Source of the DNA: a virus
Direction: 5' to 3' (one strand)
DNA length: 33,587 nucleotides
IMG/VR virus record: IMGVR_UViG_3300025721_000002
Span: 1-33,587 of that record
Shown: one piece after another, positions 2,764 through 32,721 of the stretch
Numbering within the stretch: position 1 is the first letter of the stretch
Layout of the letters: the number at the start of each line of letters is the position of its first letter
The notes under the pieces: generated by a model
The model's database searches: none
What the model was told of the DNA's origin: nothing
The model's input: only the letters and a program-made list of their open reading frames with translations
Translations under genes and position numbers: made by a program

Positions 2764-3630
2764 TCATGCCGCCTCCTCTGGTATTGGCAACATTGGCCGC
2801 GACTGAATATCCGCTATTCTCTGCCGCGCGATTTCGACAAAACCCGCGTCCTGCTCAATGCCAATAAAGTTGACGCCTTCGAGCAGGGCAGCGCATCCGG
2901 TTGTGCCGCTACCCGCGAATGGATCAAGCACCGTGCCTCCGGGTGCGCACGTCATGGCAACCAGGCGGCGCATAATGTCCACTGGCTTTTGGGCAGGATG
3001 GTTGTACTCGCCGGTGCGTTTGCGTTGTCCCGGCGGTAGAAACGACCAGACATTGGTGTAATTGACCTCACGTGGTGCTGATTCATATCCTTGACGGGGA
3101 TATCGAGTACCCCACGCTGGGTTTTGATGCACGTTATTCGTCCGAAACCCGTGATGGCCGTCAATTTTTCGCTGCATCTCTCCGATGTAACGGCGAATTG
3201 AATCCAACGTTGTTACATCCACGAGCACGCCGGGCAGTTTGACATCCTCATACGGACCTCGTGTCCGGTGAAACGTCCGGTGCTCGCCAATGGAGTAGAT
3301 CAGGATGGATTCATGCCCTCTTGATAATCGGTTGCCCATCGTTGCGCTGCGCTTGACCCAGCTGATGTGCTCCATAAAGTACATCCCGTTTGCCACAGCC
3401 GCCGCGTGCCAGTCCATGAGAGTGGGCATTTGTCCGAAGACAACGCAGAAGTCACGGCCAACTCTCGCCGCTTCAGCAGTGAACGCAGCAATATCGACCG
3501 GCTTATCCCATGGATTACTCTTGTCGATATTGATCCCATATGGCGGATCGGTAATAACCGCGTCAACAGACGCATCGGCCATCTCACGTATGACGGCAAG
3601 GCAATCGCCGTGGTGTAGCTCTACGCTCAT
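2764..3630 (-). CDS. DNA (N6-adenine/N4-cytosine) methyltransferase, beta-type (288 aa)
   Basis: Catalytic motif IV, DPPY, is at about residues 28-31 (VITDPPYGI). The SAM-binding motif I, DPFAGSGT, is near the C-terminus at about 236-243, followed by the acidic motif (FIGIEQD). Catalytic motif first and SAM motif last is the beta-class order. The middle (about 80-215) would hold the target recognition region. The preceding 'HPAQKPVDIMRRLV' is the usual motif X. It transfers a methyl group from SAM to an exocyclic amine of adenine or cytosine in DNA. Its start overlaps the SNase-like gene (ATGA). No restriction partner is visible, so it is an orphan enzyme, plausibly protecting phage DNA or marking it for packaging. 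Base specificity cannot be read from the sequence. Confidence 0.9.
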   Translation of the reverse strand: MSVELHHGDCLAVIREMADASVDAVITDPPYGINIDKSNPWDKPVDIAAFTAEAARVGRDFCVVFGQMPTLMDWHAAAVANGMYFMEHISWVKRSATMGNRLSRGHESILIYSIGEHRTFHRTRGPYEDVKLPGVLVDVTTLDSIRRYIGEMQRKIDGHHGFRTNNVHQNPAWGTRYPRQGYESAPREVNYTNVWSFLPPGQRKRTGEYNHPAQKPVDIMRRLVAMTCAPGGTVLDPFAGSGTTGCAALLEGVNFIGIEQDAGFVEIARQRIADIQSRPMLPIPEEAA

Positions 3631-4013
3631 GTTGCCTCCGGTTTGGCATGTCCCAGGCGCGTCATCTCGGTTGCAACATCGCGCCCGTCCTCCAGGATTA
3701 TGTCAGCTATGTATCTGCCGAAACTGGTTTTATCCTTGTAGGTGACGACCTTGACCGGCGTGCCGATGGGCACCAGATCGAGCGCTGCTTGACGCGCTGC
3801 CTGCCCTTTCTCTAGCTCGCCGGGGTCTTTCTGACCGTATATCTCCCAGGTATTTAAATTGCGAATGCGCAGCGTCTCGTAAGCGTATTTATTTAGCCCC
3901 TGGTCAATGTACGCATCGCACGTGTCACCATCTACCCAGTGCTTTAAAACCGCACGATACGGGCCGAACGGGATGTCGATAGGGTAGTTATCAAACTCCA
4001 CTGGCTTTCTCAT
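3627..4013 (-). CDS. Staphylococcal nuclease-like (thermonuclease) protein (128 aa)
   Basis: SNase fold signature: 'VDGDTCDAYID' (DGDT at residues 28-31), 'LRIRNLNTWEIYG' (about 48-60), 'VKVVTYKD' and 'FGRYIADIILEDGRDV' (GRY at 99-101). In the classic enzyme the second segment reads G-(I/V)-D-(T/A)-P-E. Here it is L-N-T-W-E, so the Ca-binding Asp is replaced by Asn, a change common in phage and mobile-element homologues, and the catalytic Glu is kept. The GRY arginine is present. No signal peptide, so it would act in the cytoplasm. Coupled by ATGA overlaps to both endolysin and methyltransferase genes. It probably cleaves nucleic acid; host DNA degradation is a guess. Confidence 0.8.
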   Translation of the reverse strand: MRKPVEFDNYPIDIPFGPYRAVLKHWVDGDTCDAYIDQGLNKYAYETLRIRNLNTWEIYGQKDPGELEKGQAARQAALDLVPIGTPVKVVTYKDKTSFGRYIADIILEDGRDVATEMTRLGHAKPEAT

Positions 4014-5380
4014 GCTGCCTCCAATGCCTCAGCGCCAAGACGTGCCAGGAGCACGCCAACTCCCGGATGCCATTCGAACTTTGCCCTCTCGAAATACTGT
4101 TGCGACCCCTGTTTTCCGTCGGGCGTCATAAAGGGCGACTCGCCACTCAAGGGATAGCCGAACACGGCAATCGACACACGGTCGTCACCGAATTGTTCCC
4201 AAAAATCTTTAAAACCTTGAGAGATAAACTGGCCTGTCGCCGAGAAGAAACGTGCCGTGGGATGTGGTTTCGGCGGTTGCGCGCCAACATCCCGCGCCTC
4301 GTTGATGTAGCGCAGCAGTGTATCCCATCTAAAATGTGGGCCCGGATCGGTATGATCGTTCGGCGGCGGCACCTGATAATGACCAATAAGATACTCACGA
4401 CTGACGGCCTTGATACCCGGATGGCGTTGCATGATGCCCGCCGAGAGTGCCGCCAGCTCGCGATAGGCTCCCTCGGTAAACCCGCCCCTGGCCGCGTAGC
4501 CCTCCAGCTCGATGTTGACACCGCGCAGGTTGTACTCACGGTTGCCGGCTGTCCAGGCCGCGTCACGTTCGCGCACGAGTTGCGCCCGGCGCTTGCCGTC
4601 CGCCGAGATAAAATAATGCGTCGAGCTGCCCTCATCCGTCGCCGTCGGCCAACGTGTTAGCCAATTAACGCCACTATCGAAACTGCCCTCGCTGGTGTGA
4701 TAGATAATGCGGTCGATGGTGATGCCATTGCGCCCCGCAGTGTCTATCGGATAGCCAAAGCAGGGGCTGTATTTCCAGTCGTAGCCGGGCTGGTCGGTCT
4801 GCGACACGGGCGGCTCTTCCTTCACTGGTTCAGCAGCCATCCATGCATTGATCCAGTCCACCATCTGCTGGGCATATTGCTCGGGCATATTTTTGTCTTT
4901 GGCTGGCGCCCATACGCGGATGTGCTCGACGATGGTGGTTGCCTTGGCGTTGCGGTAGGCATAGCCGGGCTCATCAACGCGGTACAAACCATCCTGCACG
5001 CTGTCATATGCGTTGCGGTAACGCACGTAGTCGGATCCTCGTGAGGCGTCATGGATGATTTCGGTCCGTTGTTTGAGGGCGGGATGCCGGACAGTGCGGG
5101 CGTTGGTCCAGCTATGGGTGCTGTTACGCCAGAGTACCGACGCTTGATTCGTACCGAATGAACTTTCCTTCCCCAGAATTGCCAGCCACGTTGCCGGGTC
5201 GTGTCCTTCCGCTACAATCATGCTGTAGATAGCGCGGGCCTCTTCCCGTCGCTCTGAGGGCACAGTCGGCAACCACAACGCATCGGACTCAAATGAGTTG
5301 CGGTCTGCCAGTACAGACACGAAGACTGTCTCCGAAATCCGTGGCTTTGCCTTAAATGGGGAGTGAATTGTTACCGTCAT
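4010..5380 (-). CDS. Modular endolysin: N-terminal lytic domain, amidase, wall-repeat domain (456 aa)
   Basis: Three parts. About residues 40-185 ('WLAILGKESSFGTNQ...', later 'YAQQMVDWINAW') resemble glucosaminidase-like phage lytic domains. About 215-360 form an amidase_2/PGRP domain with the expected zinc ligands: His in IIYHTSEGS, His in LIGHYQ, Asp/His in NDHTDPGP. About 375-450 ('RFFSATGQFISQGFKDFW ... FGYPL ... QYFERAKFEWHP') match a repeat found in Chloroflexota surface proteins and probably bind wall or surface polymer. It cleaves the amide bond between MurNAc and L-Ala. No signal peptide, so export would need a holin. The ATG at 5378-5380 follows GGAGAGGACGAACG, a ribosome binding site shared with the next gene upstream. 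The start overlaps that gene by 29 nt. Confidence 0.88.
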   Translation of the reverse strand: MTVTIHSPFKAKPRISETVFVSVLADRNSFESDALWLPTVPSERREEARAIYSMIVAEGHDPATWLAILGKESSFGTNQASVLWRNSTHSWTNARTVRHPALKQRTEIIHDASRGSDYVRYRNAYDSVQDGLYRVDEPGYAYRNAKATTIVEHIRVWAPAKDKNMPEQYAQQMVDWINAWMAAEPVKEEPPVSQTDQPGYDWKYSPCFGYPIDTAGRNGITIDRIIYHTSEGSFDSGVNWLTRWPTATDEGSSTHYFISADGKRRAQLVRERDAAWTAGNREYNLRGVNIELEGYAARGGFTEGAYRELAALSAGIMQRHPGIKAVSREYLIGHYQVPPPNDHTDPGPHFRWDTLLRYINEARDVGAQPPKPHPTARFFSATGQFISQGFKDFWEQFGDDRVSIAVFGYPLSGESPFMTPDGKQGSQQYFERAKFEWHPGVGVLLARLGAEALEAA

Positions 5381-26905: not shown

Positions 26906-27215
26906 ACACCACCCGTATCGTTATGTCGCCAGCATGCTCGATGTGGTCGCTATAGCCACGGTTCTTGGCTTGAGTCTTGAGGTAGAACTGAATAGACCAC
27001 GGTTCGCCTTTCTGGATCGCCTGCGCCAGTTTCAGCTCGGCAGTATCGCCCATCTTGCCGCGTTCGGCTTCGAGTATCGCGCGTACGGACGGCTTGTCTG
27101 CTATGCGCTTCTTGATAGTATCTGGCTTGCACCCAAGCCGCGCTGCGGCAACGTACACCATGCCTTTGGTGGCAATGAGGGCGTCGGTGATTTGTTTATC
27201 TGTGTAACTAGGCAT
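26886..27215 (-). CDS. Terminase small subunit-like DNA-binding protein (109 aa)
   Basis: ATG at 27213-27215 is chosen because it overlaps the methyltransferase stop (TGATG); a GTG one codon earlier is possible. An HTH at residues 5-40 ('DKQITDALIATKGMVYVAAARLGCKPDTIKKRI') has the usual small-terminase pattern of an AT-hook-like 'G....AA..LG....ti...i'. 'ELKLAQAIQKGEPWSIQFYLKTQAKNRGYSDH' is typical of the C-terminal part of these proteins. It would recognise the packaging site and load the large subunit. The gene order supports the call. Confidence 0.8.
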   Translation of the reverse strand: MPSYTDKQITDALIATKGMVYVAAARLGCKPDTIKKRIADKPSVRAILEAERGKMGDTAELKLAQAIQKGEPWSIQFYLKTQAKNRGYSDHIEHAGDITIRVVYDNVDD

Positions 27216-28462
27216 CACAAACCGCCACTACCGCCGCTTTGATGATCTGACACAAGCAGCGGTGTGAGCCCCATACCTGACATACGCTCCAACGCGACGG
27301 CGACATATTTGGGTTCGATCTCCATGCCGTAGCAGACGCGGCCGGTTTGCTCGGCGGCCACCATCGTTGTGCCGGAGCCGAGGAAGGGGTCGTACACGCT
27401 CGCACCCTCAGGACACACACGCCGAACAAGGTCACTAATGACGGTCATCGGCTTGATACTTCCGTGCCATCCGGCGATATCGACCTTGTTCGCGTTATCC
27501 CAATTAGCGGTGTAGCAGTCGTGGGCAAAAGGGTGAATGTCCACCCATTGTCCTGTTCCAACTGTTGACACTAAAATGGCTTCGCTTTTCAGAATCCAAC
27601 CCCTCCAGGGGAACGTAATATCGTTTGGCTTGTACATCCAAAGCATGCGTTCAAAATGATGAGCATAAGAACGGATAGCGTCTAACCATTCAGGGAACAT
27701 GCGACTCGACTGAAACGCAACAATCACCGCGTTCTCAACGGGTAGATTGCGAACAACGCCCTCGAATAGGACATGGAGACCTTCAGGGTCGTCGTTCGGT
27801 ACTCCATCACGGTTTATGCCGTAAGGCGGGTCAGTAACGACAGCATCCGCCTTTGCACCGTCCATCAACCGCGCCACGTCCTCCGCGCTCGTGCTATCGC
27901 CACACAACAGCCGGTGCGCCTTGCCGGACACGGTTAACGATGGTATCTCCCACAGCTGGCCCACAACGCAGCCCCACGCCTCACGCAGTTCGTCGGCGCG
28001 ATCGACCTGTGCGCCAGGGTCTTCGACCTTCTCTGGTTCGCTATACAGACCGTTAGCCTCTGCCAGCTCCGCAAGCATCTGCTGTACCGCCGCGTCGCCG
28101 GTCGAGATGTCCCTGAGCAATTCATCCAGCTTCGCGGTGTCCGTTGCGGCCATAGCGGACAACGGGTCAAGCGTCGCCAGAATCAACGCCTCTTCGGCCT
28201 CGTCGAGGTCAACATAGGTGACAGGTATCGTCGGCTCGTTGCGTTGCAGGGCAAGGGAGACTCTGAGGTGACCGTCAATAAGTGCCTGGTTGCGCTGATT
28301 AACGATGACACGCTGCACCCAGCCGACCTCGTTCAGCACGCCGGCTAATGCGTCTTGTTGCGCCTTGGGATGGATGCGCCAGTTCCGGGCGTTGGCCATG
28401 AGCTGGTCCGGCGCTTCTTCGCCTTCGCCTGTGATGCGGTTTTGCCATACTGCTAGTGCCAT
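27215..28462 (-). CDS. ParB-like nuclease domain fused to DNA methyltransferase (415 aa)
   Basis: ATG at 28460-28462 chosen; a TTG three codons earlier is also open. Residues 20-100 are a ParB/Srx-like domain ('NWRIHPKAQQDALAGVLNEVGWVQRVIVN' and the signature LIDGHLR at 61-67). After a helical linker, DPPY is at about 211-214 and the SAM motif DPFLGSGT at about 358-365, the beta-class order. This two-part architecture is widespread in phages ahead of terminase genes. It would methylate adenine or cytosine amines; the ParB-like part may guide it or bind a nucleotide. Preceded by a hairpin (28492-28538) and coupled to the small terminase. Confidence 0.9.
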   Translation of the reverse strand: MALAVWQNRITGEGEEAPDQLMANARNWRIHPKAQQDALAGVLNEVGWVQRVIVNQRNQALIDGHLRVSLALQRNEPTIPVTYVDLDEAEEALILATLDPLSAMAATDTAKLDELLRDISTGDAAVQQMLAELAEANGLYSEPEKVEDPGAQVDRADELREAWGCVVGQLWEIPSLTVSGKAHRLLCGDSTSAEDVARLMDGAKADAVVTDPPYGINRDGVPNDDPEGLHVLFEGVVRNLPVENAVIVAFQSSRMFPEWLDAIRSYAHHFERMLWMYKPNDITFPWRGWILKSEAILVSTVGTGQWVDIHPFAHDCYTANWDNANKVDIAGWHGSIKPMTVISDLVRRVCPEGASVYDPFLGSGTTMVAAEQTGRVCYGMEIEPKYVAVALERMSGMGLTPLLVSDHQSGGSGGL

Positions 28463-28491
28463 GCCGCTCAATCCAGATTCTTAACCACGCG

Positions 28492-30101: not shown

Positions 30102-30316
30102 AACGCCATCCATTCGTGGTCCATAAACCAGTAGGCCTGCCGTGGGTATTCCGGGTTATCCTCCGCCGAAAACACTATCCCAGCGCCACGGCGGCCATCC
30201 TTAACGGGCCTGCTGAGGTACTTGATAATCCCGATCTTGCCGTGGAACTCCGTGTTTATGGCAGTGATGCGGACGCGGGAGCCGACAGCCAGCGGAGTCT
30301 CGGTCTTCTGGTTCAT
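30098..30316 (-). CDS. Small KOW/SH3-like protein (72 aa)
   Basis: ATG 30314-30316 overlaps the upstream stop (ATGA). 'LAVGSRVRITAINTEFHGKIGIIKYLSRP' is a KOW-like beta turn (V..G..V.i......G..G.i), followed by 'RGAGIVFSAEDNPEYPRQAYWFMDHEWMAL'. Such small barrels bind nucleic acid or protein. Specific role unknown. Confidence 0.6.
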   Translation of the reverse strand: MNQKTETPLAVGSRVRITAINTEFHGKIGIIKYLSRPVKDGRRGAGIVFSAEDNPEYPRQAYWFMDHEWMAL

Positions 30317-30618
30317 GGCGTTGATTCTCCTAGCCCGACCAGCATCACCCGGCCGCCGGTCACGATAACGGTACAGGCCATCCCAGTAGGAATCATCCCG
30401 GCAGCGGCGTACAGACCAACGCGCTCCACGTCCGACAGTTGCAGCGCGGAGGCGATGCCGGTGACCATCTCGCGAGCGTCAATCAACCCGTAGCCCTCAT
30501 CATCCTCTAAGTCCAGTTTGAAGACCTCCCGCAGTGCGTTCATCAACCGCATAATGCGCAGTTCCTTGTGAAGGATCACCTCACGTAACCGATCGTTTTC
30601 CTCTGTCATGGCGCTCAT
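30313..30618 (-). CDS. Hypothetical protein, paralogue A of a tandem pair (101 aa)
   Basis: The N-terminal coiled helix (MSAMTEENDRLREVILHKEL) is followed by 'RIMRLMNALREVFKLDLEDDEGYGLID', which is shared with the gene immediately upstream. The C-terminal half ('ALQLSDVERVGLYAAAGMIPTGMACTVIVTGG') is not shared and looks like a small alpha/beta domain. ATGA overlaps on both sides. No function known; the shared block is described as a DNA repeat. Confidence 0.65.
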   Translation of the reverse strand: MSAMTEENDRLREVILHKELRIMRLMNALREVFKLDLEDDEGYGLIDAREMVTGIASALQLSDVERVGLYAAAGMIPTGMACTVIVTGGRVMLVGLGESTP

Positions 30619-30774
30619 TCTCCGGCCTCCTCATTCAGGGCGGCGCGGGCGAGTTCGGCAATCAACCCGTAGCCCTCGTCATCCTCTAAGTCCAGTTGGC
30701 CGATCTCTCGCAGTACGTCACTCAACCGCATAATGCGGCGATCCTTGTGACGGTGCGTCTTACGTAACCGATCG
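30482..30774 (-). repeat. Imperfect 114-bp direct repeat in two adjacent genes
   Basis: Bases 30482-30595 and 30661-30774 align without gaps at an offset of 179 bp, roughly 80-85% identical by eye, beginning ATCAACCCGTAGCCCTC in both. They encode the shared 'RIMRL...LREV..LDLEDDEGYGLI' block in both genes, so this is a partial gene duplication. Confidence 0.85.
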
Positions 30775-30944
30775 ACTCTGGCCTGTGCATCGGCCAGCAT
30801 GGTGTGCAGACGGTTGACCTCACCTAGCAGCCAGTACAAATCGTCCTTGCCCAGCAGCGAGACGATTCCGTCTCCACGGTTTGCTAACTGTTTGCATATG
30901 GCTGCCAGCCGTTTTGTACGGTCTGTGGCGGCATGGTTTATCAT
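30615..30944 (-). CDS. Hypothetical coiled-coil protein, paralogue B of a tandem pair (109 aa)
   Basis: Longer N-terminal helical region (TDRTKRLAAICKQLANRGDG, then LYWLLGEVNRLHTMLADAQARVDRLR), then 'RIMRLSDVLREIGQLDLEDDEGYGLIAELARAALNEE'. The last block is shared with the downstream gene. Probably a coiled-coil dimer. ATGA overlaps join it to both neighbours. Confidence 0.65.
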   Translation of the reverse strand: MINHAATDRTKRLAAICKQLANRGDGIVSLLGKDDLYWLLGEVNRLHTMLADAQARVDRLRKTHRHKDRRIMRLSDVLREIGQLDLEDDEGYGLIAELARAALNEEAGE

Positions 30945-31144
30945 GCTGTCTCCTTGCGGGTAAAGCGCCGTAATCGTCGCGCGAGAATGCTGCCGGTCAG
31001 TGTTGGGTTGTCCGGTTTTGCCGCGTAACAGACGGTCAACGTCTGGGCTGGATACGTCACCGTGACACAGTACAGGCCGTCACGTACGTGCATGGCAAAG
31101 GTTGGCGCGGTGATGGTGGCTGGGAGGGTCAGTGGCGCGGTCAT
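30941..31144 (-). CDS. Hypothetical protein (67 aa)
   Basis: Start at ATG 31142-31144 (MTAPLTLPATITAP), which overlaps the methyltransferase stop (ATGA). A short beta-rich protein, 'FAMHVRDGLYCVTVTYPAQTLTVCYAAKPDNP', with a basic end 'LARRLRRFTRKETA'. No motif recognised. Confidence 0.6.
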   Translation of the reverse strand: MTAPLTLPATITAPTFAMHVRDGLYCVTVTYPAQTLTVCYAAKPDNPTLTGSILARRLRRFTRKETA

Positions 31145-32721
31145 GAAGCTGCCTCCATAATCCACAACGTCTGTTGCGCGTTGCGCTTGATAGCCATGTC
31201 GAGATAGTCGGCGTTGATGTCGATACCGATGGCCTTACGTCCGTGCTTGCGCGCAACCAGTGCGGCCGTCCCCGAGCCTATAAACGGGTCGAGAACGGTG
31301 TCACCCTCACGGCTGCCGGCCAGGATGCACGGCTCGACCAATTTGGGAGGAAACGTTGCGAAGTGGGATGTTTTCTCGGTCTGTATGCGGTAAAATTGAC
31401 ACGTACATGGATTGGAGTCATACGATGTTTCAGTGCCATCAGTGCAGTCGGGTGTTTGAACCGAAATACAAGAGTCGGAACAAGCCTGCTCCAAAGTACT
31501 GCTCACGTGCATGTTCCCATCAAGCGCAGCGTACTCGTGTTGTGTTGACGTGTGCCCAGTGTGACCAAGACTTTGAGCGGAAGGCATACATGGCTGACTG
31601 GTCAAAAGACCGTGGCCCGTTTTGCTCATTTGATTGCTACGGCCAGTGGCAGGCGGTAAACACTCGTAGTGAAGCGAATCCGAATTGGGTTCCACAAAGC
31701 TCGGCTCGTGGTGCTGCGCAATGGCAGCGCGTTCGGCTTGCCGCTCTTGAACGTGACGGTCACGCATGTCAAGAATGCCGCTCAGATCATCGGCTACACG
31801 TTCATCACGAAACACCGTGGGAACCGAATCAGGAAGATCCGCATGGACTGGACAATCTGGTGACGTTATGCGCATCGTGTCACCGAAAACGTCACCGCTT
31901 ACCACAGGGACCAGACGGGAAGTTTCTTTCCAATCACTAAACGGCTGCGTGGCGATTGTCCAGACGGTGCGGCGATTGCGGGTGCCGGTCCCAGCAGTGC
32001 GGCTGTCGATGCCTGCTTCCTGCCGGTCAGTGATGGACTTTGCGTGCCATGCGACGCGGGATGGGTCACTGAACGACCGGCCGCGCAGCAGACCCAAGTC
32101 CAGTCCACTATCTGCGCGCTCGCTAATCGCCGCCGCATCGTAGTAATACCGCGCCTGCTTGGTCAGCAGAAAAAGGTACTCGTGCGACTTCGTGGGCCGG
32201 TCCGTGACCGACTCCGGCATCGGGTTCGGCTTCGCCCAGATTATGTCCGAACGCAGCCACCAGCCGTCGGCCTGCAACGCGAAGGCGACGCGCCACGGGA
32301 TGCCAACCATGTCTTTGGGTTTGAGGCCGAGTTCGGTTGATGATGGCTTTTGGAGAAGCATTCCCTTCGCCGCGTCGAGTTTCGGCTTGCCGCCATCAAC
32401 GAACCCGTGTCCGCCATCCCGCTTCTCGCCTCCTCCATTCCAGTACGAGTCGCCGAGATTGAGGAAGACCACGCCGTCGTCTTGAAGGACCCTGCGCACC
32501 TCGCGGAACACGGCGACCATGGTGGCGACGTAGAGTTCGGGGGTGGGTTCTAAGCCGAGTTGACCGGGCGTCAAATAATCCCGCAACATCCAGTACGGCG
32601 GCGACGTAACACACATCTGTACGGACTCGTCCGGCAGATTTCGGAGTCCTGCGAGTACATCGCAGTGATAGAGCGTCATACCCGCGTCATGGTGATACGG
32701 CGTCATGTCGTGTGCCATCAT
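31141..32721 (-). CDS. DNA (N4-cytosine/N6-adenine) methyltransferase with an in-frame antisense insert (526 aa)
   Basis: Motif IV SPPY is at residues 40-43 (VTSPPYWMLRDY). 'VFREVRRVLQDDGVVFLNLGDSY', 'GIPWRVAFALQADGWWLRSDIIWAKPNPMPESVTDRP' and 'RTVWTIATQPF' follow the usual order. Motif X (HFATFPPKLVEPCIL) begins at residue 453 and SAM motif I DPFIGSGT is at 478-485. Homologues I know join TQPF to HFATFP through a few residues. Here residues 262-452 intervene, a Cys/Ser/His/Thr-rich stretch that is the antisense of an HNH gene. The frame remains open throughout. Activity therefore depends on tolerance of a 191-residue loop. Starts at 32721, 32718 or 32706 are all possible; the repeat around 32704-32744 slightly favours 32706. 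Confidence 0.85.
   Translation of the reverse strand: MMAHDMTPYHHDAGMTLYHCDVLAGLRNLPDESVQMCVTSPPYWMLRDYLTPGQLGLEPTPELYVATMVAVFREVRRVLQDDGVVFLNLGDSYWNGGGEKRDGGHGFVDGGKPKLDAAKGMLLQKPSSTELGLKPKDMVGIPWRVAFALQADGWWLRSDIIWAKPNPMPESVTDRPTKSHEYLFLLTKQARYYYDAAAISERADSGLDLGLLRGRSFSDPSRVAWHAKSITDRQEAGIDSRTAGTGTRNRRTVWTIATQPFSDWKETSRLVPVVSGDVFGDTMRITSPDCPVHADLPDSVPTVFRDERVADDLSGILDMRDRHVQERQAERAAIAQHHEPSFVEPNSDSLHYECLPPATGRSNQMSKTGHGLLTSQPCMPSAQSLGHTGHTSTQHEYAALDGNMHVSSTLEQACSDSCISVQTPDCTDGTETSYDSNPCTCQFYRIQTEKTSHFATFPPKLVEPCILAGSREGDTVLDPFIGSGTAALVARKHGRKAIGIDINADYLDMAIKRNAQQTLWIMEAAS
31366..31938. mobile_element. Compact HNH-gene insertion within the methyltransferase gene
   Basis: Boundaries are inferred from the methyltransferase protein: its conserved frame stops after TQPF (codon ends 31939) and resumes at HFATFPP (31365). 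The 573-nt segment is a multiple of three and consists almost entirely of the HNH gene on the other strand plus a 59-nt leader. The HNH stop codon falls exactly at one boundary. No room for a group I intron core and no intein splice residues, so it looks like a bare homing-type gene. Confidence 0.65.
31425..31940 (+). CDS. HNH homing-type endonuclease, antisense inside the methyltransferase gene (171 aa)
   Basis: ATG at 31425 follows TTGGAGTCATACG, a good ribosome binding site; in-frame ATGs at 31407 and 31356 are alternatives. The N-terminal half has two treble-clef-like zinc knuckle pairs: C4/C7 with C26/C30, and C43/C46 with C67/C71. The HNH domain is at about 101-158, with C115/C118, the HH pair at 127-128 (LHVHHETPW), N144 (LDNLVTLC), C149/C152 and H153. 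These are the metal- and DNA-cleavage residues of the family. Together with multiple N-terminal zinc fingers this is typical of phage free-standing homing nucleases. It is the only plus-strand gene in the right half of the window and must have its own promoter; I saw no good one. Confidence 0.85.
   Translation: MFQCHQCSRVFEPKYKSRNKPAPKYCSRACSHQAQRTRVVLTCAQCDQDFERKAYMADWSKDRGPFCSFDCYGQWQAVNTRSEANPNWVPQSSARGAAQWQRVRLAALERDGHACQECRSDHRLHVHHETPWEPNQEDPHGLDNLVTLCASCHRKRHRLPQGPDGKFLSNH

Follow-up and report, generated by a model that had tools for sequence, protein, structure and literature searches.

The usual view is that a homing gene lying within a protein-coding gene can spare its host only by means of an intron or an intein. 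The closest described system is the ShiLan domain, a hidden HNH endonuclease gene located on the same strand and out of frame in actinobacteriophage methylases (Gosselin 2023, PMC9957025; Arsenault, Gosselin, Gogarten 2025, PMC11855218). The element described here resembles ShiLan in several respects, as in both cases a zinc-finger HNH gene lies in a phage DNA methylase whose frame remains open, with no intron or intein signature, a scattered distribution and a loop or hairpin predicted in the methylase. However, the HNH of ShiLan is encoded on the same strand in the third frame, with a GTG start 18 bp in, a TAAC end and no detectable ribosome-binding site, whereas the gene examined here is antisense, starts with ATG, has its stop in the PF codons of the target and is provided with promoter-like elements and a ribosome-binding site, while the methyltransferase frame keeps a CxxH/CxC pair. 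The insertion site and the family also differ: Mantra gp64 is a DPPY-type methylase in which the insert adjoins EPVVVARKP, and the two HNH proteins show only a faint similarity, located in their zinc fingers. The ShiLan paper (PMC11855218) nowhere uses the terms antisense, opposite or reverse.

Antisense homing endonuclease genes have been reported in nuclear group I introns (PMC9548176); these are likewise encoded on the opposite strand, but they sit in self-splicing rDNA introns and therefore no host frame needs to stay open. Free-standing phage HNH homing endonucleases, described as intergenic (PMC2988022), have the HNH domain, the mobility and the small autonomous gene in common with the present element, but here the gene is located inside its target with an antisense overlap. 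In terminase inteins (L102-L110, L115, L123, L124, L141, L147) members of this broad HNH family likewise lie within an open frame of the host, but there the HNH shares the strand of its host, in the +2 frame, and the host protein is a self-splicing intein. A survey of the open-access literature returned no description of an antisense form inside a protein gene. An earlier note on this DNA had proposed a distinct type of silent mobile gene, should the arrangement recur; the element is indeed recurrent and shows no intron or intein signature, but its kind is partly known from ShiLan (2025, PMC11855218). The general kind was thus published in 2025, while the antisense, promoter-bearing and doubly selected form is new.

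The window, i.e. the whole stretch of DNA analyzed, is a tailed-phage contig of 33,587 bases from IMG/VR carrying terminase, portal, tape measure and endolysin families. The features of the locus are listed below.

31141..32721, minus strand: N6_N4_Mtase-family DNA methyltransferase (N4/N6), 526 aa (open reading frame; Pfam PF01555, E 1.7e-46)
31366..31938, minus strand: insert in the methyltransferase reading, residues 262-452, 191 codons (about 40 uninserted relatives compared)
31425..31940, plus strand: HNH endonuclease gene, 171 aa, with paired Cys zinc-finger motifs and a C-terminal HNH domain (open reading frame; Pfam PF01844, E 1.4e-8)
31368..31373, plus strand: -35-like element ATGTTT, 2 nt inside the insert edge (22-locus placement scan)
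31391..31396, plus strand: -10-like element TAAAAT (22-locus placement scan)
31414..31417, plus strand: Shine-Dalgarno sequence GGAG, 7 nt 5' of the HNH ATG (sequence)
31938..31940, plus strand: HNH stop codon TAA, to which the conserved Phe codon of the target (F261) contributes two bases and the S262 codon its first base
31843..31854, minus strand: CPVH in the methyltransferase frame, residues 290-293, opposite the HNH catalytic H..LDN codons
31399..31407, minus strand: CTC in the methyltransferase frame, residues 439-441, opposite the HNH leader between the -10 element and the ribosome-binding site

The HNH open frame spans 31356..31940 on the plus strand, and translation from the ATG at 31425 yields the 171 aa protein. 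A check of the reading frames reproduced to the base the coordinates given earlier for an HNH gene antisense in an open methyltransferase frame, and a near-identical record (99.98%) showed the same nested structure as the window. Motif IV (TSPPY) and motif I (DPFIGSGT) of the host methyltransferase are both intact, and its frame is uninterrupted across the insert. Two more methyltransferases are encoded by the same phage, at 27215-28471 (a ParB-like part joined to a methyltransferase) and at 2764-3630. Positions 30472-30595 and 30649-30774, located in the adjoining small genes 30313-30618 and 30615-30944, are about 82% alike and are a recent tandem duplication.

The HNH insert is absent from 43 related methyltransferases. 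In about 40 relatives without it, VW and HFA are separated by 10 aa, versus 178-236 aa in the inserted methyltransferases, and in the window 191 codons replace 3 residues of the uninserted homologues. The segment is thus an insertion, a multiple of three long, in a gene whose homologues join both sides directly, as had been supposed from the single sequence. The insertion point falls between PF.GA and HFATFP, a position that we take to lie between the target-recognition region and motif X/I, according to the motif order of beta-type methyltransferases.

Searches with the HNH family collected 22 distinct viral methyltransferases carrying this family antisense, all in one common phase and with the methyltransferase frame open in 22/22; one of them, L055, was reached from the methyltransferase side and is free of HNH bias. 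The recurrence contemplated in the earlier note was therefore found at 21 loci besides the window. The PF.GA/HFATFP site is common to 21/22 loci, the remaining one, L079, being slightly shifted. In L079 (methyltransferase frame 3438-5351, minus strand) a partial duplication of the flank PPLDYWEIPTAPY / PPDYWDIPTVGY is seen on either side of the insert, which recalls the repeat adjoining the ShiLan insert. The aligned insert starts varied too much to be scanned against the collection, so that a DNA pattern encoding SPDCPVHG took their place, and this search for the SPDCPVH-type antisense suggested earlier returned 12 matches, consisting of 5 unrelated short frames, the known class and L171, a further contig bearing the L080 element. 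Scanning genome contigs with five HNH sequences gave no match, while a scan with 13 HNH sequences gave distant relatives only, mostly un-nested, which served as controls. Isolated phages and plasmids contain methyltransferase homologues, none of which covers the insert. The sequence comparisons indicate that the nesting in methyltransferases is not a chance overlap, and it is the recurrence, not the single case, that proves the class.

The HNH gene was then considered as a protein-coding sequence. Its third codon positions, corresponding to second positions of the methyltransferase frame, differ most (0.54-0.63 versus 0.25-0.48 at positions 1 and 2), and the zinc (Cys/His) and HNH residues are invariant in 22/22 sequences. 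The frame has homologues among Pfam, PDB and phage HNH proteins, the best PDB sequence match being 5h0m, which the family profile hits at E 1.2e-9. The AlphaFold2 model showed a mean pLDDT of 89.8; Foldseek returned no match to this model at E<=0.001, the best being McrA at 0.023, a weak result that is probably due to the zinc-finger arms. Codon-position variation and invariant Cys/His residues across the 22 sequences agree with the expectation that the HNH frame evolves as a protein, and indicate that the insert is evolving as an HNH gene.

Stop avoidance in the methyltransferase frame was evaluated by a shuffling test in which the HNH protein sequence and codon usage were kept fixed and synonymous codons were permuted. 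Across the 22 nested HNH genes 0 stops were observed versus 60.3 expected, a difference whose formal P-value would overstate the case because the loci are related and the counts are not fully independent. Synonymous sites are near saturation between most of the 22 loci. In the control set of 19 relatives not nested like this, 108 stops occurred versus 118.8 expected in the same frame. The HNH gene of the window alone showed 0 stops versus 2.25 expected, an outcome with a chance of about 5%, so that the single case is suggestive only. The idea that the antisense frame is kept open through avoidance of certain codon pairs (codons ending in TT, CT or TC followed by A) thus holds over the 22 genes, and the counts indicate that the openness of the methyltransferase frame is selected across the class.

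The product of the methyltransferase frame was analyzed in the same genes. In inserted genes, purifying selection acts on the methyltransferase section downstream of the insert, and motif I is kept. Within the insert, the overall protein similarity in the methyltransferase frame exceeds that of codon shuffles only modestly because most of the loop is free, and the excess is concentrated opposite HNH residues 140-151 (z 19), where the methyltransferase reads SPDCPVHG. The CxxH in this segment and a CxC near the other insert end are both present in 21/22 loci, the sole exception, L070, having neither. In the HNH gene, the codon of the motif His is CAT in 21/21 cases versus 131/230 elsewhere, and the codon preceding the catalytic Asn ends in C in 22/22 versus 143/314 for Asp/Asn elsewhere; neither preference is present in relatives not nested like this. 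These frequencies indicate that opposite CxxH the HNH gene is held to the codons from which Cys and His are read on the other strand, and that the methyltransferase frame is itself under selection within the insert. The dual-frame constraint, for which a substitution analysis had been suggested, is therefore visible as HNH-type variation together with fixation of the CxxH/CxC codons in the methyltransferase frame.

AlphaFold2 modelling of an inserted methyltransferase returned a confident core, with strands 264-273 and 443-452 forming a beta-hairpin at the insert base at modest confidence (pLDDT about 55-75), and predicted residues 297-434 to be disordered, a loop of about 140 residues. To judge from the residue pattern alone, the CxxH/CxC pair probably acts as a zinc staple closing this loop. 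The previous description of the insert as a long Cys/Ser/His-rich loop was thus appropriate as far as the loop is concerned, but the insert is not merely passive, CxxH and CxC being under codon-level selection. We consider it rather probable that the element represents bifunctional antisense coding, in which the codons of the endonuclease active site would also spell the zinc ligands (CxxH) of the host-loop staple, both proteins being selected on the same bases and the host being protected without splicing.

The edges of the insert were examined for expression signals. Of 225 combinations of offset and spacing scored for sigma-70 hexamer pairs, the highest sum across the 22 loci was given by an offset of +2 from the insert edge with a 17-bp spacer, corresponding in the window to ATGTTT-17-TAAAAT followed by GGAG and ATG. 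Strong promoter-like pairs occur in L006 (TTGACT-17-TAGAAT), L062 (TTGTTT-17-TATAAT), L065 (TTGTTT-17-TAGAAT) and L074 (TTGACA-18-TATTAT), and a promoter is not obvious in about half of the 22 loci. Several relatives carry TTGTTT or TTGACT as the -35 element; ATGTTT of the window is weak, and a promoter scan of the window only was not significant, the top pair in the region being a different one (p 0.23). The conserved residues FY...TEKTSH of the methyltransferase frame simply correspond to the opposite strand of the promoter-like element. At the other edge, the HNH stop is found at the same place in most of the 22 loci (TTY-A or CTT-A), completed in most of them by the conserved Phe codon of the target (TTY-A). 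These signals indicate that the element is self-contained, with promoter-like elements and a ribosome-binding site at one edge and a target-completed stop at the other. The earlier reading, which had overlooked the embedded promoter-like elements, the Shine-Dalgarno sequence and the borrowed stop, is amended in this respect.

Mobility was assessed from phylogenies and from pairwise comparison of the elements. Inserted and uninserted genes interleave in the methyltransferase tree, with 7 changes of which at least 3 are forced by strong branches, and clades of the HNH tree are rejected on the methyltransferase tree and vice versa (pAU 0.0076 to 1.7e-61). Comparison of L171 with L080/L167, metagenome contigs of which one ends about 90 bp from the common stretch, showed an insert identical over 525/525 nt within methyltransferases whose DNA identity is 63% upstream and 70% downstream. 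Identity reaches about 55-60 bp into either flank and is followed by abrupt divergence, the pattern expected from repair-driven homing. The pair indicates a recent homing-like transfer between clearly different host genes, although other recombination might also account for it. The tree conflict and the identical insert of L171 and L080 show that the element is mobile, as had been proposed. The sequence characters of a homing endonuclease gene were found here as one conserved site, uninserted alleles and host-to-host movement with common flank tracts, and the HNH protein would be expected to cut uninserted methyltransferase genes.

Other explanations were weighed against these results. If an HNH gene had simply disrupted the methyltransferase, the antisense frame being open by chance or base composition, zero stops in the window alone would have a probability of about 5%; however, 22/22 loci are open, with 0 versus 60.3 stops and controls that are not open, CxxH/CxC is kept and the downstream methyltransferase is under purifying selection. 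Recurrence and downstream conservation already refute this fortuitous openness, which we regard as extremely improbable. A pseudogene reading was considered and rejected. Alternatively, the real product could be a zinc-binding extra domain of the methyltransferase and the HNH frame a spurious antisense open reading frame, as the conservation of CxxH/CxC in the methyltransferase frame might suggest. The Pfam, PDB and phage homologues, the invariant Cys/His, the confident fold and the protein-like codon-position variation of the HNH argue against it, as does the predicted disorder of about 140 loop residues in the methyltransferase frame; refuted by the HNH-frame homology, this possibility retains practically no probability.

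Removal of the insert as an intron or intein of an unrecognised type would fit the distribution, which is intron/intein-like, and a real intein does occur elsewhere in some of these methyltransferases (L006). However, with excision at the RNA level there would be no selection to keep a frame open or to retain CxxH/CxC codons; Rfam gave no match, either at E<=1 in the window or at the gathering score in nine relatives, and Intein_splicing gave no match in the methyltransferase, though the same library detects it in the terminase inteins. The absence of intron or intein signatures in Rfam and Pfam had been anticipated, and we consider removal very improbable. The HNH might also be a restriction enzyme partnered with the surrounding methyltransferase in a one-locus restriction-modification system, since restriction enzymes of the HNH type are known and the weak structural matches include McrA-type HNH folds. 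Most methyltransferases of the family, however, are without HNH, and the HNH travels between methyltransferases separately; because exact insertion in one conserved methyltransferase motif is a homing signature, a restriction partner is disfavoured and very improbable.

The best explanation, to which we assign a probability of about 0.85, is a mobile antisense HNH homing gene at one conserved site of phage N4/N6 methyltransferases, readable in both directions and sparing its host without splicing. The gene would enter this site in antisense orientation, its protein would cut uninserted methyltransferase genes, and the inserted copy would serve as template for repair of the break, i.e. homing. 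The codon choice of the HNH gene leaves the opposite-strand methyltransferase frame open, so that the host protein may be synthesized in its entire length, the insert forming a disordered loop whose base would be closed by the beta-hairpin and probably a zinc ion. As the loop would be closed at its base, the enzyme could still fold, and an element readable from both sides would spare the host gene.

Further inserts were observed in the course of the analysis. HNH relatives on the same strand and in the +2 frame occur in large, open, terminase-like frames with an intein (L102-L105, L107-L110, L115, L123, L124, L141, L147; Pfam-confirmed for three), a group showing 0 host-frame stops versus 70.5 expected by codon shuffling. 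In L118 (3206-5611, minus strand) a ShiLan-type methylase frame (DPPY, TVARKPL) bears an HNH relative antisense in another phase. A second, different antisense HNH lies between GSSYAS and K.KDL of the same methyltransferase frame in L065 (4892-5467) and L083 (4922-5458), again with the frame open. At other sites of the same methyltransferase family, L006 has an intein-like insert, and inserts of the LAGLIDADG-like type occur in frame in L054 and L074. This methyltransferase family is a hot spot for mobile elements.

The recurrent element described here appears to manage without splicing, from the opposite strand, through dual coding. It provides a natural example in which two genes overlap in antisense and both are measurably selected, with un-nested relatives as a control, so that the evolution of overlapping genes and of hidden mobile elements becomes a testable question. 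Annotation pipelines may call the host gene only and miss the nuclease.
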